From NCBI RefSeq assembly GCF_036013745.1, contig NZ_CP107880.1, positions 3,472,001-3,536,000 of the forward strand: 64,000 nt of DNA, given 5' to 3'. A model generated the notes under the pieces. That model saw only the letters and a program-made list of their open reading frames with translations, was not told where the DNA came from and did not search any database. This DNA comes from Streptomyces sp. NBC_00483. GTDB taxonomy: Bacteria > Actinomycetota > Actinomycetes > Streptomycetales > Streptomycetaceae. The position numbers were made by a program, and so were the translations under genes. This document shows, in pieces, positions 2,452 through 37,647 of this stretch. Each line of letters starts with the position of its first letter. Position 1 is the stretch's first letter.

Positions 2452-3609
2452 TTGCGGATCACGGGAATCAGCACGCACGTGGTCGGGACTCCGTGGCGGA
2501 ACCTGACCTACGTACAGGTGCACACCGACGAAGGACTCACCGGTGTCGGCGAGACCCGGATGCTGGGCCACACCGACGCACTCGTCGGCTACTTGCACGA
2601 GGCCCAGGCCAACCACATTGTCGGCTCCGATCCGTTCGCCGTCGAGGACCTCGTACGGAGGATGAAGTACGGCGACTACGGCCGGGCCGGCGAGATCGTC
2701 ATGTCCGGCATCGCCGTGATCGAGATGGCCTGCTGGGACATCAAGGGCAAGGCCCTCGGCGTGCCGGTGTGGCAGCTGCTCGGCGGCAAGGTGACCGACA
2801 AGGTCAAGGCGTACGCGAACGGCTGGTACACCACCGAGCGCACGCCGGAGGCCTACCACAAGGCCGCGCAGACGGTCATGGAGCGCGGGTACAAAGCGCT
2901 GAAGATCGACCCGTTCGGCACCGGGCACTTCGAGCTCGACCACGAACAGTCCCTGTACGCCGTCTCGTTGATCGAGGCCGTGCGCGACGCCATCGGTCCC
3001 GAGGCCGAGCTGATGCTGGAGATGCACGGGCGGTTCTCCCCCGCCACGGCGATCCGGCTCGCCCGCGACCTGGCTCCGTTCAACCCGGCGTGGCTGGAGG
3101 AGCCGGTGCCGCCGGAGAACCTCAAGGCGCTGGAGAAGGTGGCCGCGAAGGTGGAGATGCCGGTGGCGACCGGTGAGCGGATCCACGACCGGATCGAGTT
3201 CCGGGAGCTCTTCGAGAGCCAGGCCGTCGACATTCTTCAGCCGGACGTCGGCCACATCGGCGGCATCTGGGAGACGCGGAAGCTGGCCGCCACCGCGGAG
3301 ACGCACTACATGCTGGTCGCTCCGCACAATGTGGGCGGGCCTGTACTGACTGCCGCTTCTCTGCAGGTGGGTTTCTCCACTCCCAACTTCAAGATTCTCG
3401 AGCACTTCAACGACTTCGCGGACGCCGAGATCAAGAAGGTCGTGAAGGGCGCGCCGAAGGTCGTCGACGGCTACTTCGAGCTGTCCCACGAGCCGGGTCT
3501 CGGCGTCGAGCTCGATGTCGACGCGGCGGCCGAATTCCCGCAGCAGCAGGCCCGGTTCGACCTGTGGGCCGAGGGCTGGGAGAAGCGCGACCCGAAGGCG
3601 GCGTCGTGA
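2452..3609 (+). CDS. Enolase-superfamily (mandelate racemase/muconate lactonizing) sugar-acid dehydratase
   Basis: This 385-residue protein begins at TTG 2452, chosen because CAGGGGGC at 2438-2443 sits 8 nt upstream. The N-terminal capping domain is followed by a TIM barrel. The active-site set is visible: E190 and H192 (LMLEMHGRF), E216 (EEPV) and E242 (GERI) as Mg ligands or acid/base, and the D265 (QPDVGHIGG) / H292 (APHNVGGP) dyad. The HG-R and PHN pattern is closest to the galactonate/gluconate dehydratase branch, which dehydrates aldonic acids to 2-keto-3-deoxy acids. The exact sugar acid cannot be read from the sequence. It overlaps the downstream dehydrogenase by 4 bp, so the two form an operon. 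Confidence 0.9.
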   Translation: MRITGISTHVVGTPWRNLTYVQVHTDEGLTGVGETRMLGHTDALVGYLHEAQANHIVGSDPFAVEDLVRRMKYGDYGRAGEIVMSGIAVIEMACWDIKGKALGVPVWQLLGGKVTDKVKAYANGWYTTERTPEAYHKAAQTVMERGYKALKIDPFGTGHFELDHEQSLYAVSLIEAVRDAIGPEAELMLEMHGRFSPATAIRLARDLAPFNPAWLEEPVPPENLKALEKVAAKVEMPVATGERIHDRIEFRELFESQAVDILQPDVGHIGGIWETRKLAATAETHYMLVAPHNVGGPVLTAASLQVGFSTPNFKILEHFNDFADAEIKKVVKGAPKVVDGYFELSHEPGLGVELDVDAAAEFPQQQARFDLWAEGWEKRDPKAAS

Positions 3610-5909: not shown

Positions 5910-7025
5910 ATGCGAAACCGTCGAGCCGTTCTCACCGCGATAGCCGCCTCCGCCTCCCTCGCGCTCACCCTGTCCGCGTGCGGCCAGAGCGGAGAGGGCG
6001 GAAGCAAGGACGAGAAGAAGAGCGCGAAGGGCTCCACCGTCGGCATCGCGATGCCGACCAAGTCCTCCGAGCGGTGGATTGCCGACGGCAACAACGTGGT
6101 CAAGTCGCTGAAGGCGAAGGGCTACAAGACCAAGCTGGCGTTCGGTGAGGACGACCCCGACCAGCAGGTCTCGCAGATCGAGAACATGATCACCCAGGGC
6201 GTCTCGGCGCTGATCGTCGCCTCCATCGACAACAAGTCGCTCACCAACGTGCTGCAGGAGGCGAAGGACGCGAACATTCCGGTGATCGCGTACGACCGCC
6301 TGATCCTCGACTCGAAGAACGTCGACTACTACGCGACGTTCGACAACGAGAAGGTCGGCCAGCTTCAGGCCGGCGCCATCGTCAAGAAGCTGGGCCTCGA
6401 CAGCGGCAAGAAGGGCCCGTTCAACCTGGAGCTGTTCGCCGGTTCCAACGACGACAACAACACCAAGTACTTCTTCAACGGCGCGATGTCGGTGCTCAAG
6501 CCGTACATCGACAAGAAGCAGCTGGTCGTCAAGTCGGGGCAGACCAAGCTCAACCAGGTCACGACGCTGCGCTGGGACGGCGCCACCGCGCAGAAGCGCA
6601 TGGACGACATCCTCACCTCCACGTACAAGAGCGAGAAGGTCGACGCGGTGCTCTCGCCGTACGACGGCATCTCCATCGGCATCCTGTCGGCGCTGAAGTC
6701 CGACGACTACGGCACGAAGGCGAAGCCGTTGCCGGTGGTCTCCGGGCAGGACGCCGAGGTCGCCTCCGTGAAGTCGATCATCGCGGGCCAGCAGTTCTCG
6801 ACCGTCTACAAGGACACCCGCAAGCTCGCCGAGGTCTCGGTGGACATGGTCGACGACGTGCTCAACGACAAGAAGCCGAAGGTCAACGACACCAAGACGT
6901 ACGACAACGGCGCCAAGGTCGTCCCCTCGTACCTGCTGACCCCGGTCAGCGTCGACAAGACCAACTACCAGAAGACGCTGATCGACAGCGGCTACTACAC
7001 CAAGTCCGACCTGGGCCTGAAGTAG
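5910..7025 (+). CDS. chvE: ChvE-like sugar-binding lipoprotein of an ABC importer
   Basis: This 371-residue protein starts at ATG 5910, with AAGGA at 5897-5901 placed 8 nt upstream. The signal peptide ends in a lipobox (TLSAC), so the mature protein is lipid-anchored outside the membrane. The body is a two-lobed type I periplasmic-binding fold with [16 protein letters not shown] at the N-terminus and VASIDNKSL and [12 protein letters not shown] later, as in ChvE / multiple-sugar receptors for arabinose, galactose and glucose-type monosaccharides. The ATPase, permease and mutarotase genes follow directly. The gene symbol is by family resemblance. Confidence 0.9.
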
Positions 7026-34218: not shown

Positions 34219-35039
34219 CGACACTCGCCGCCCGGATCGCCCCCTGGCTGCCCGCCCGGCTGACCGCGGCGACGGCCCGCGCCCTGTACCCGCGCTTCGA
34301 GCCCGAGCTGACCCGGCTCGCCGACATGCTGCCCGCCGCCGGGGCCTGCGGCACGGCGGTCGACGTCGGCGGCTGGTACGGCCCGTGGACCCACCGCCTC
34401 GCGGGCCCGGCCCGCCGCGTGATCACCCTCGAACCGGTCCCGCACCTGGCCCGGGTGCTCGCCGCGTCCGCGCCGGCGAACGTGCGGGTCGTCCGAGCCG
34501 CCGCCAGCGACCGCCCCGGCACGGCCCCGCTGTGGCAGCCGCCGCACGACGAGCGCGGCGAACGCGGGGTGTCCTCGCTCGTCCGCCGCGACGACCTGCA
34601 CGCACCGACCGGCCGCGAGGTGCCCTGCGTGACCCTGGACGAACTCGCCCTGCGCGACGTCGACTTCATCAAGATCGACGTGGACGGGGCGGAGCTGCGA
34701 GTCCTGCGCGGCGCCCGCACCCTGCTCGCCCACGACCGGCCCGCCCTCTTCATCGAGCTGGAGACCCGCATCCAGCCGATCACCCCGGTCGTCGCCCATC
34801 TCCGCGCCCAGGGCTACGAGGGCTGGGTCCTGCCGGAGACCGACTGGCTACCCCTGCCCTCCTACGATCTGGCGGCCCATCAGCGCGGCACCTCCCACAT
34901 CGCCTCGCAGGGCCTGCTGCGCCGCGCCCTCACCCCGACAAGACGCCGCCCGCGGTACGTGAACTCGGTGCTGTTCCTTCCGGACGGGCGGGCCCCCGGC
35001 GACGTACGCCACCATGGAGCGCATGCCCGCACCAGCTGA
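34215..35039 (+). CDS. FkbM-family methyltransferase
   Basis: This 274-residue enzyme starts at ATG 34215 in an ATGA overlap with the Trm112 gene. Motif I is AVDVGGWYGPWTHRLAG (about residues 55-71). The FkbM domain hallmark is VDFIKIDVDGAELRVLRGA, followed by ALFIELETRI. FkbM enzymes O-methylate sugars, polyketides and glycans. In this cluster a sugar O-methyl transfer on a surface glycan is the simplest idea, without direct proof. Confidence 0.9.
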   Translation: MTTLAARIAPWLPARLTAATARALYPRFEPELTRLADMLPAAGACGTAVDVGGWYGPWTHRLAGPARRVITLEPVPHLARVLAASAPANVRVVRAAASDRPGTAPLWQPPHDERGERGVSSLVRRDDLHAPTGREVPCVTLDELALRDVDFIKIDVDGAELRVLRGARTLLAHDRPALFIELETRIQPITPVVAHLRAQGYEGWVLPETDWLPLPSYDLAAHQRGTSHIASQGLLRRALTPTRRRPRYVNSVLFLPDGRAPGDVRHHGAHARTS

Positions 35040-35601
35040 GCCCTTCACCCCGCTGGACTTCCAACTGGTCCTGCTGCGCCGCATGGCCGACCACAACCCG
35101 GACCTTGTGGAGACCGCCCGCGCCGACCTCGGTGCCTCCGTCGCCGAGATGCGGGAGGCGAACCGCCGCTGGCAGGCGAAGCTGCACTCCCGCCACCCGC
35201 AGGCGGCGGTCTCCCGCTACCGGTCCGTGCTCGGCGCCCCGGAGCGCACCCTGCTCCGCAAGGTCGGCGACCTGGAGTGCGAGGCGCTGCTGTGGCCGGT
35301 GCCGCTCTGGCCCGACCTGCGCTTCGAGGTGCTGCTCGCCCCCACGGGCGGGATCTGGAACGAGTGGCTGATCCGCACCCCCGGCACCCCGGGCCCGGCC
35401 CTGCGCACCCTCGCCGATCTGACGCCCTGGTCCTGCACGGTGGACGAGGCGGCCCGCGCCTTCGCCCCGGCCCGCCCCCTCGAAGGCTCGGCGCCCACCC
35501 GCTGGGGCCTGGCGTTCCACGCCCCGGACGAGGCGGGGACGCCCCGCGAGGTGCGGGCGGAGTTCACCTGGGGGCTGCTCCAGCGCTGGTACGAGGCCTG
35601 A
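35014..35601 (+). CDS. Conserved hypothetical protein at end of glycan cluster
   Basis: This 195-residue soluble protein was not recognised. It has no signal peptide or membrane helix. The N-terminal half is helical and charged (FQLVLLRRMADHNPDLVETA, MREANRRWQAKLHSRHPQ); the C-terminal half is rich in Trp and Pro (EALLWPVPLWPDLRFEVLLA). It overlaps the FkbM gene by 26 bp, so it belongs to the same transcript. ATG 35023 is an alternative start. The long overlap and GC-rich third positions support it as real. Confidence 0.75.
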   Translation: MERMPAPAEPFTPLDFQLVLLRRMADHNPDLVETARADLGASVAEMREANRRWQAKLHSRHPQAAVSRYRSVLGAPERTLLRKVGDLECEALLWPVPLWPDLRFEVLLAPTGGIWNEWLIRTPGTPGPALRTLADLTPWSCTVDEAARAFAPARPLEGSAPTRWGLAFHAPDEAGTPREVRAEFTWGLLQRWYEA

Positions 35602-35760
35602 GATTCACCCGCGAGGCCCATCCGGAATACGAACACAAAAAACGAACAGGGGCGCAGTTGTTCCCTTGAACAGGTGGTCGTAGCCGAAGAGTTTGCATGG
35701 GGCGTACGTGAACAACGATGCTTACGGTGCGCAAGCAACGGGCTGCAGACCGTAGCGACC

Positions 35761-35828
35761 GCATCGCGATGCACATCTCAAGTCCCAAGTCCCATATGCA
35801 CTTTGCATCACCGATGCACTTTGCATCA
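35761..35828 (+). promoter_or_regulatory. Tandem palindromic operators before a 19-aa peptide gene
   Basis: ATGCACTTTGCATCA occurs twice, perfectly, at 35796-35810 and 35814-35828, an 18-bp period. Each copy contains the inverted repeat ATGCA-CTT-TGCAT. Just upstream lies a perfect 12-bp palindrome GCATCGCGATGC (35761-35772), and a further TTTGCAT at 35691. The second copy ends 6 bp before the AGGAGA ribosome site. A repressor binding here would cover the leader. The surrounding 35602-35848 region has no other gene and is less GC-rich than its neighbours. Confidence 0.65.
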
Positions 35829-35848
35829 TCGCTAGGAGAACGCGTCAC

Positions 35849-35908
35849 ATGAACGTCATCACCGACATCGTCGCCGGCCTCGCCCACTTCCTCGGCTGGC
35901 TGGTGTAA
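35849..35908 (+). CDS. 19-residue hydrophobic peptide
   Basis: The frame ATG 35849 to TAA 35908 encodes MNVITDIVAGLAHFLGWLV. AGGAGA lies nine bases upstream, tandem operators lie immediately before it, and a strong terminator starts 20 bp after the stop, so it looks like a complete one-gene transcription unit. The peptide could form a short amphipathic or membrane-inserting helix with one acidic residue and an aromatic C-terminal end. Possible roles are a membrane-active toxin-like peptide, a signalling peptide or a small membrane-protein partner of the mbl product encoded next. The family is not recognised with certainty. Confidence 0.65.
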   Translation: MNVITDIVAGLAHFLGWLV

Positions 35909-35927
35909 CACCGTCGGACACCGAAGC

Positions 35928-35962
35928 GGCGCCGTCTCCCACGTCCCACGGGAGGCGGCGCC
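35928..35962 (+). terminator. Terminator of the 19-aa peptide gene
   Basis: A hairpin with 13-bp arms (GGCGCCGTCTCCC / GGGAGGCGGCGCC, one T-G pair) and a 9-nt loop lies between the peptide gene and mbl. It has no T-run. Confidence 0.75.
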
Positions 35963-36084
35963 CCGGCGTTTGTGGACCCGCCCGGCCTACTCCAACGAGC
36001 GCCCTCCCGCGCGCGACCGCAGGATGCCAGAAGGGTCGCCGCCCGGCGAGCCCACCACGGTCCGCGCTCTCGGGAGGATCTGCC

Positions 36085-37122
36085 ATGACCGCCAGTCTGG
36101 AGCAGTTGCGCCGCTGCCACTTCGCCGTCGATCTCGGTGCCGCGCGCACCCGCGTGTATGTGAAGGGCGCGGGCCTCGTCGTCGATGAACCGAGCGCGGC
36201 GGCGGTCAACACCCGCACCGGCGCGCTGATCGCGGTCGGCGAGTTCGCCGAGAAGATGACAGGCCGCACCCCGCACTACATCCGCGTCGTGCGCCCGGTC
36301 TCCGGCGGCACGGTCGTCGACATCGAGATGGCCCAGCGGATGCTGCGCCACCTGCTCGGCGACAAGCTCCGCCGCACCCTTCGCCGCAAGCCCCGCCTCC
36401 GTGCGGCGGCCGCCATCCCGCACGACGCGGACCCGCTGGCCCAGCGCGCCGCCGTCGAGACCCTCATCGGCCTCGGCGCCCGCCGGGTCGAGCTGGTCGA
36501 CACCCTGATCGCTGCCGCAGTCGGCTGCGGCCTCCCGGTGGAACAGCCCGAGGCCACGATGATCATCGTCTGCGGCGCGGCCACCACCCAGATCGCGGTC
36601 CTCTCGCTCGGCTCGATCGTGACGGCCGCCCGGATCCCCGTCGGCGGCGACGCCATCGACCACGCGGTCGTCCAGCACCTGCGCCAGCACCACGCGCTGA
36701 TGCTGCCGTCCCAGTCCGTACGCCCCCTGCAACTCGCCCTGAGCGGCAACGGCCTCACCCCGCAGGGCCCGGAGCAGACCGAGATCCACGGCCGCGACGT
36801 GGCGACGGGCCTGGCCCGCTCCGTACATGTGGACACCGCCGCCGTGCGCAGCGCGATCCACACCCCGCTGACCGCCGTCCTCGACGGCATCGGCAGGGTG
36901 CTGCGCGACTGCCCGCCCGACCTGGTCGCCGACCTCACGGAGCGCGGCATCATGATGGTCGGCGGCTCCGCCCTGCTGCCCGGCCTCGACCAGATGCTGC
37001 GGTCCGCGACGGGCGTCCCGGTGCACATCGCCGAGCGCCCCGACGTGTGCGCGGTGCGCGGGCTCGGCGAGATGCTGGAGGGCAGGATCCAGCCGATGTC
37101 CCTGAGCCCCCTGACCGACTGA
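36085..37122 (+). CDS. mbl: MreB-like actin homologue (Mbl type)
   Basis: This 345-residue protein starts at ATG 36085 with GGGAGG seven bases upstream. Actin-superfamily ATP-binding motifs are present: phosphate-1 HFAVDLGAARTRVYVKG, phosphate-2 MIIVCGAATTQIAVLS and adenosine MMVGGSALLPGLDQML. KPRLRAAAAIPHDADPLAQRAA is an MreB-type segment but lacks some canonical residues, as in the shorter Streptomyces Mbl. The product acts in spore-wall and sporulation septum assembly together with MreB in Streptomyces. No mreC/D or rod genes follow, so this is the separate mbl locus. A strong terminator follows. Confidence 0.88.
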   Translation: MTASLEQLRRCHFAVDLGAARTRVYVKGAGLVVDEPSAAAVNTRTGALIAVGEFAEKMTGRTPHYIRVVRPVSGGTVVDIEMAQRMLRHLLGDKLRRTLRRKPRLRAAAAIPHDADPLAQRAAVETLIGLGARRVELVDTLIAAAVGCGLPVEQPEATMIIVCGAATTQIAVLSLGSIVTAARIPVGGDAIDHAVVQHLRQHHALMLPSQSVRPLQLALSGNGLTPQGPEQTEIHGRDVATGLARSVHVDTAAVRSAIHTPLTAVLDGIGRVLRDCPPDLVADLTERGIMMVGGSALLPGLDQMLRSATGVPVHIAERPDVCAVRGLGEMLEGRIQPMSLSPLTD

Positions 37123-37164
37123 CCGCGCACACCCCCGGGCATCGAGCCCGCCCATCGGATGACA

Positions 37165-37197
37165 GATGGCCCGTCACGGTTTCCGTGACGGGCCATC
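37165..37197 (+). terminator. Perfect 15-bp hairpin after mbl
   Basis: The arms GATGGCCCGTCACGG and CCGTGACGGGCCATC with a TTT loop form a perfect stem 43 bp after the mbl stop and before the convergent tRNA gene. It probably works on both strands. Confidence 0.8.
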
Positions 37198-37245
37198 AGG
37201 TTACGTACGAGCTGGTCGCATCGTTTCTGCGCCGCGTACTTGCGG

Positions 37246-37319
37246 TGGGGCGGGTGGGACTCGAACCCACGGCCGACGGATTATGAGTCCGCTGCTCTAA
37301 CCGGCTGAGCTACCGCCCC
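37246..37319 (-). tRNA. tRNA with CAU anticodon (Ile2 or elongator Met)
   Basis: The 74-nt cloverleaf starts GGGGCGGTAGCTCAG, has a 7-bp acceptor stem (GGGGCGG/CCGCCCC), an anticodon loop CTCATAA and T-arm GGTTCGAGTCC. CCA is not fully encoded. The anticodon is CAU, and it lacks initiator features. The extra-loop and anticodon-stem bases lean toward the isoleucine (lysidine-modified) form, but elongator methionine cannot be excluded. Confidence 0.9.
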
Positions 37320-37451
37320 GTCTCAGCGTGGCGCGTACAAGTGTGCGCGCCGTCTGCCGCAGCATAGCCGCTCATACGATCTCCTGCCTCGGATGGTCCG
37401 GCTCTGCACGACCATGAGGACTCCCCGCGCGCGCGGACGGTTCCACCAGGC

Positions 37452-37484
37452 AAGAAAAAGCCCTCCGGAGTGGACTCCGGAGGG
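37452..37484 (-). terminator. Intrinsic terminator of the tRNA-Asn pair
   Basis: A perfect 11-bp hairpin (CCCTCCGGAGT / ACTCCGGAGGG, 37461-37484) is followed on the minus strand by CTTTTTCTT (37452-37460). It lies 12 bp after the 3' end of the last tRNA-Asn. Confidence 0.85.
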
Positions 37485-37496
37485 ACTTGTTCACAG

Positions 37497-37569
37497 CTCT
37501 CCCGACTGGACTCGAACCAGTAACCTGCCGGTTAACAGCCGGCTGCTCTGCCAATTGAGCTACAGGAGA
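37497..37569 (-). tRNA. tRNA-Asn (GTT), distal copy
   Basis: A 73-nt cloverleaf starts TCTCCTGTAGCTCAATTGGC with anticodon GTT in loop CTGTTAACC. Its acceptor stem TCTCCTG/CGGGAGA differs from the neighbouring copy by compensating changes. CCA is not encoded. Confidence 0.95.
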
Positions 37570-37574
37570 TCGAG

Positions 37575-37647
37575 CTCCCCCGACTGGACTCGAACCAGTA
37601 ACCTGCCGGTTAACAGCCGACTGCTCTGCCAATTGAGCTACAGGGGA
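37575..37647 (-). tRNA. tRNA-Asn (GTT), proximal copy
   Basis: A 73-nt cloverleaf starts TCCCCTGTAGCTCAATTGGC with anticodon GTT and acceptor TCCCCTG/CGGGGGA. Only 5 bp separate it from the distal copy, so the two are a recent tandem duplication and one transcript. The 180 bp between it and the YtxH-like gene holds no gene that I can see. Confidence 0.95.

Follow-up and report, generated by a model that had tools for sequence, protein, structure and literature searches.

The mbl gene (MreB/Mbl) of the window, by which we mean the whole 64,000-nucleotide stretch of Streptomyces sp. NBC_00483 analysed here, is preceded by a short gene, pepX, with its own ribosome-binding site and hairpin terminator (Table 1). 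The frame runs from an ATG at 35849 through 19 sense codons to a TAA at 35906-35908 and encodes the peptide MNVITDIVAGLAHFLGWLV. The terminator is an inverted repeat with arms at 35928-35940 and 35950-35962 that are 92% complementary. A sequence-only reading had described a ribosome site, 19 codons, a stop and a hairpin ahead of mbl, and each of these parts was found in place.

General scans contributed little at this locus. The pepX hairpin was not among the entries of a T-tract terminator scan over 34500-37500, and a generic sigma-70 scan of the same interval reported no promoter-like site. Rfam at the gathering threshold gave no match at the pepX locus; its sole matches in the window were three tRNAs. 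The three tRNA genes lie downstream of mbl on the minus strand (37246-37319, 37497-37569 and 37575-37647), two of them in close tandem. The 195-aa protein encoded upstream of pepX had no Pfam match.

Table 1. Features of the pepX locus, in positions of the window
Feature	Position	Strand	Basis
Gene for 195-aa protein upstream of pepX	35014-35601		Relatives in 14 of 20 regions compared
Element A, GAACA / TGTTC / GAACA half-sites CGAACAGGGGCGCAGTTGTTCCCTTGAACAGGTG, candidate regulator-binding site	35643-35676	+	Conservation in alignment
Predicted -35 hexamer TTGCAT, 18 bp from -10	35693-35698	+	G at third position in 72 of 83 cassettes
Predicted -10 hexamer GATGCT	35717-35722	+	A2 and T6 shared by 81 of 83 cassettes
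Block B, near-palindrome CGGGCTGCAGACCG in predicted 5′ leader	35739-35752	+	At most 2 substitutions in 83 of 86 cassettes
Two GTCCCA copies in leader	35782-35794	+	All 83 cassettes with block B have GTCCC between it and the start codon
Tandem 18-bp repeat, ATGCACTTTGCAT twice	35796-35831	+	In 1 of 86 cassettes; the 'operators' of the sequence-only reading
Ribosome-binding site AGGAG	35834-35838	+	AGGAG ahead of start in 84 of 86 cassettes
Frame for 19-aa peptide MNVITDIVAGLAHFLGWLV with stop, almost certain pepX homologue	35849-35908	+	Same family as S. venezuelae PepX (PMC9769785)
Hairpin terminator, loop GTCCCA at 35943-35948	35928-35962	+	GTCC-loop hairpin in 83 of 86 cassettes
mbl (MreB/Mbl), neighbour outside the pepX unit	36085-37122	+	Pfam PF06723, E = 2.4e-108

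Conservation and distribution of the frame

A 19-codon frame alone carries no weight, and relatives were therefore sought in other genomes. A degenerate peptide pattern, allowed at most one mismatch, matched once in each of 116 genus genomes out of 392, and a reversed control pattern had no match among the same 392 genomes. A sequence model covering the ribosome site, frame and terminator gave one match of at least 69 bits in 65 of 199 genus genomes, and 64 of these frames were intact; from there the scores fell to 39.6 bits. At E <= 0.01 the model listed 109 of the 199 genomes, those beyond the 65 being weak. Three hits below 40 bits were inspected (L225 to L227) and contained no intact frame, and none of this class was counted. 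The model had been built as a covariance model (R1) whose structure was poor, RNAalifold having been run on a misaligned hairpin, and it was used as a sequence model only. By a hand tally, 59 of the 65 genomes were found by both model and pattern, five carried variants that the pattern misses, and one (G052) had a frame broken by a stop.

A DNA search with positions 35690-35975 of the window matched 100 of 199 genus genomes at E <= 1e-3, a number that overstates prevalence since some matches were short and unrelated. All 30 loci returned by this search, the window's own included, encode a 19-aa peptide of one pattern. Secondary hits of 81% in two genomes (query 165-207), and one of 96% in a third, were rejected; each falls within a different long coding frame (open stretches of 373 to 608 codons). 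Beyond the genus, pepX was found in 2 of 93 genomes from the rest of the family, and the peptide pattern, with at most two mismatches, had no match in 354 genomes of the class outside the genus. Within the genus, about two thirds of the searched genomes have no pepX, so that any role it plays must be dispensable; the gene itself appears dispensable and appears to decay repeatedly.

Among 80 larger regions that were fetched, 76 had an intact frame. The four others were the broken strong model hit in G052 and weak hits of 37-40 bits in G191, G157 and G153. In G052 (L218, near 7000), a pepX frame with a stop is followed by a hairpin with a GTCCCA loop. In G153 (L227, G153:C46:43000-57000, near locus position 7000), only the hairpin is left, behind a carboxyltransferase gene.

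The coding signal was analysed in 86 distinct cassettes with 77 distinct coding sequences and 65 distinct peptides. Over the 77 coding sequences, 13 of 19 columns were invariant at codon position 2, against 4 at position 1 and 3 at position 3. The pN/pS ratio was 0.53, which is not low in itself, and 79% of pairwise amino-acid differences replaced one hydrophobic residue by another. Residues T5, A9 and G16 were invariant, and G10, W17, L18, H13 and N/D2 nearly so. The cassettes had been chosen with a loose 19-residue filter, so the evidence for a constant length comes from the independent model search, in which 64 of the 65 strong hits encode 19 residues. To judge from these patterns, the pepX frame is under selection for its hydrophobic pattern, and the gene in the window is real, far beyond chance. 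The sequence-only reading had staked the gene on conservation of the frame between species, and on this point it held.

Homology to PepX of Streptomyces venezuelae

A full-text search with pieces of the peptide led to a published sequence, fMNVITNLLAGVVHFLGWLV (PMC9769785, PMC11256431), that of PepX from S. venezuelae NRRL B-65442 (RS03776; papers of 2022 and 2024). Three of our loci (L103, L105 and L108) encode a peptide identical to it. In larger regions from the genomes of the first two (L131 and L133), the identical peptide is flanked by genes for YceG and an ABC transporter, matching the paper; Pfam on the L131 copies gave PF02618 (YceG) and PF00005/PF00664 (ABC transporter). The window peptide differs from published PepX at 5 of 19 residues and is identical at 14. 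For example, residue 6 is D in the window and N in S. venezuelae. Both peptides have 19 residues and the start and end pattern MN..T..AG..HF.GWLV, and the window peptide falls within the 19-aa class MN[hydrophobic]2 T [DNH] .. A G .. H F [VLI] G W L V. In alignments, the control elements of the window cassette are common to the group with the identical published peptide; the genomes of this group have the leader palindrome and the GTCCC-loop terminator as in the window. Since the published sequence is the peptide of these three loci, and that of the window is alike, the window almost certainly carries a PepX homologue. The two differ in address, the window gene lying between the 195-aa gene and mbl and that of S. 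venezuelae between YceG and ABC transporter genes, and the leader is longer in the window, with a private tandem repeat.

Passages of PMC9769785 describe PepX as a linear ribosomal 19-residue peptide with N-formyl-methionine and a main LC-MS peak in S. venezuelae, where ethanol shock lowered both the pepX gene and the PepX peptide. According to sections of PMC11256431, PepX is produced abundantly but reaches the medium only in traces, constitutive overexpression of pepX had no clear metabolite outcome, and deletion of the frame except its first and last codons had modest metabolite effects; at 18 h, 224 genes were up and 486 down in the deletion, ECF sigma factors included. The same sections mention an unannotated PepX homologue in S. 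coelicolor M1154, with an N-formylated abundant product reported (data not shown), in line with the earlier claim that gene finders can miss such genes. A passage of PMC13136089 speaks of PepX homologues as frequently seen, with a role so far without explanation. Our other searches of the open-licence PMC literature added no further reports on the window pepX gene. Asn or Asp after the initial Met is expected to block removal of the Met, which agrees with the full-length peptide reported.

Control elements and RNA motifs

Upstream of the frame, element A was present with at most 3 substitutions in 78 of the 83 cassettes with block B, and in 77 its spacing from block B was constant at 80-81 nt. 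With the predicted promoter between the two, the transcript would start near 35729. In three cassettes block B reads CGGGATGCATACCG instead of CGGGCTGCAGACCG; both halves of the dyad were altered together, as for a DNA site bound by a dimer. In the genome of the window, element A and the 30-base block B had one match each at up to 3 mismatches, and no further copies of either were found in this genome beyond the pepX locus. These single matches pointed to no particular regulator; LexA-, ECF- and OsdR-type sites were considered. In one region (G089, L158) there is no frame, but the -10, the first half of block B and some of element A remain.

The sequence-only reading had placed tandem operators ahead of the frame. 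The direct repeats of ATGCACTTTGCAT are present, beginning at 35796 and 35814, but they occur only in the window among the 86 cassettes and lie downstream of the predicted promoter. Sequence upstream of mbl was also compared in other genomes, in 80 stretches of 1.5 kb or, in nine cases, less, and none of them had the tandem. With no counterpart in other cassettes or mbl upstream stretches, it was rejected as a conserved control site, and if the promoter prediction is right, its position in the leader makes it no classical promoter operator. We read it as a probable local duplication in the leader. A looser form, ATGCANNNTGCAT, occurs at one further place in the same genome. The control parts that are conserved are instead the GAACA-type upstream site, the predicted promoter of sigma-70-like form, the palindrome of 14 bp, and GTCCC in the leader and the terminator loop. 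On these elements, pepX is probably an autonomous transcription unit of about 300 bp, made up of the upstream site, the sigma-70-like promoter, leader, ribosome site, frame and terminator.

The recurrence of GTCCC raises the question of whether the RNA itself acts. The transcript of about 200 nt might have a trans-acting function of its own, exerted by block B or by the C-rich GUCCC motifs, and yield the peptide besides; RNAIII/hld and SgrS/SgrT are analogies for such dual function. The leader motif was present in 83 of 83 block-B cassettes against 8% expected in shuffled leaders. GTCC-loop hairpins with at least 13 pairs, counting G-T pairs and tolerating one mismatch, were found in 83 of 86 cassettes, which have 75 distinct terminator hairpin sequences, whereas 3 of 55 control hairpins had GTCCC in or close to the loop; the cassettes are related, and these counts are not independent. 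The motif was predicted to be exposed in the loop (mean unpaired probability 0.83) and partly so in the leader (0.57), compared with 0.38 overall. Block B, however, was no more exposed than average (0.38), and the 48 compact leaders gave no convincing consensus structure. The GTCCC motifs could also be protein sites on RNA or DNA. We consider a dual-function RNA unlikely. Its likeness to RNAIII/hld of Staphylococcus aureus would be, at most, one of function, in that a short RNA whose exposed loops are rich in C also encodes a small amphipathic peptide with an N-formyl group; the pepX RNA is much shorter.

Pairing of the leader GUCCC with the 3′ arm of the terminator was considered by eye and dropped because changes in the arm are not accompanied by changes in the leader. 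In another region (L161, G155:C13:68000-75000, at about 3220-3260), a hairpin behind another gene has a GTCCCA loop, so pepX is not alone in having this loop. The published deletion, confined to the frame, is thus silent on the RNA; the peptide and RNA readings can be separated by experiment. If the RNA did act, an abundant transcript would regulate other mRNAs in trans while the peptide coats the inner membrane, and the expression changes of the frame-only deletion would reflect only half of pepX function.

Genomic addresses and possible function

Selection of the 80 larger regions was by hand: the top matches of the DNA search supplied 20, the pattern search most of the other 60, and model hits and a class-wide search the rest, so the numbers of addresses among them do not give prevalence. 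In 26 regions, the window included, pepX was at address I, with 195-aa, AMP-binding, carboxyltransferase, S8 peptidase and Mbl genes in varying subsets. Address II, with ABC transporter and YceG genes, was found in 22, and four more were similar, YceG being unscored there. Five others lay near the same flavin-monooxygenase-like gene, seven at address III, two and two at two more addresses, and eight were single. One copy behind each label was checked by Pfam, with L131 used for MarR, ABC transporter, YceG and FMO-like, and L124 for AMP-binding, carboxyl transferase and peptidase S8. In a tree of 76 cassettes, from a quick search with some flank beyond the cassette included and several long branches, addresses clustered strongly, with 10 changes compared with 40.6 in shuffles. 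This clustering suggests mostly vertical descent with rare moves.

The varied addresses bear on three explanations that tie pepX to a neighbour. The sequence-only reading had inferred a developmental membrane role from the place before a spore-wall actin gene; PepX would then be a partner of Mbl in spore-wall synthesis. The two genes are adjacent in this genome, and Mbl lay within 7 kb of pepX in eight other regions, but this makes only 9 of 80 regions with the window's own, and elsewhere the neighbours are unrelated, in either orientation. Nor is synteny with mbl kept: the peptide was encoded within 1.5 kb upstream in only 3 of 80 mbl loci of other genomes (nine stretches were shortened by contig ends). 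The interval from the 195-aa gene to mbl contains AMP-binding, carboxyltransferase and peptidase genes in relatives such as L125. They are absent from this interval of the window, which leaves pepX beside mbl. On this comparison the adjacency is an accident of this genome and not conserved, PepX is not part of the Mbl machinery, and a developmental partnership with Mbl is highly improbable.

A short frame with a hairpin ahead of a gene could also be an upstream ORF or attenuator controlling mbl. The downstream genes vary, however, the unit also precedes unrelated genes or converges on them, and its hydrophobic pattern is kept by selection, and we give this explanation almost no credence. The third explanation, an idea of the 2024 paper (PMC11256431), is that PepX works with one of its neighbours there, the YceG transglycosylase or the ABC transporter. 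Both neighbours are present at the 22 hand-picked address II regions, and the four similar ones add to these, but the window and 25 other regions have another address without these genes, and at address II the cassette is opposite to both genes in 16 of 22 and parallel in 6. We consider this partnership very unlikely; the variety of addresses and orientations weakens it along with the Mbl link. The frame, ribosome site and terminator are kept across species while neighbours vary, and to judge from these regions the pepX unit is independent of its neighbours. The description as a self-contained micropeptide gene was therefore borne out.

The helical hydrophobic moment at 100 degrees was in the top 5% of shuffles for all 65 distinct peptides, whereas that at 160 degrees, a beta-type control, was so in none. 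All 65 would thus be amphipathic as helices, which upholds the earlier view of a membrane-type peptide. On a helical wheel, the polar or small residues N2, T5, D/N6, A9, H13 and G16 fall on one side. A net positive charge was absent from 64 of 65 peptides. The peptide may lie in plane at the inner surface of the cell membrane, with the hydrophobic side of the helix in the lipid and the small or polar side facing out, and may adjust the membrane or a membrane protein there; loss of pepX would then be sensed by envelope-sensing regulators. Jointly, PepX identity and this membrane-surface helix mechanism seem fairly probable to us. Against the mechanism stand the absence of a predicted transmembrane helix and the modest metabolite effect of the deletion, both as given in sections of PMC11256431 (2024), the many genomes without the gene, and the unremarkable pN/pS. 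A conserved binding face of the helix was rejected for want of statistical support, the conservation moment at 100 degrees having p = 0.32; among the six angles tried, 90 degrees had p = 0.04 and the others 0.29 or more. SpoVM-type membrane-surface peptides are likewise small amphipathic helices that could sit in the plane of the membrane, but PepX has no known scaffold role and, in 64 of 65 peptides, no net positive charge.

A short, hydrophobic, amphipathic peptide might instead disrupt membranes, as a type I toxin or as an antimicrobial or surfactant of the phenol-soluble-modulin kind. N-formylation of the homologue, described in part of PMC9769785, would fit, but the same peptide is abundant under normal growth with only traces in the medium, according to sections of PMC11256431, and nearly all of the distinct peptides lack a net positive charge. 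Membrane disruption is thus improbable in our view, and we retain the membrane-surface helix.

PepX is among the main peptides in extracts of a model Streptomyces and is without known function. With 86 distinct cassettes compared, pepX becomes a testable unit. The comparison suggests that YceG, the ABC transporter and Mbl are poor guides to the function of PepX, that selection keeps its hydrophobic pattern and amphipathicity, and that pepX has fixed control and RNA motifs that the published frame-only deletion left in place.
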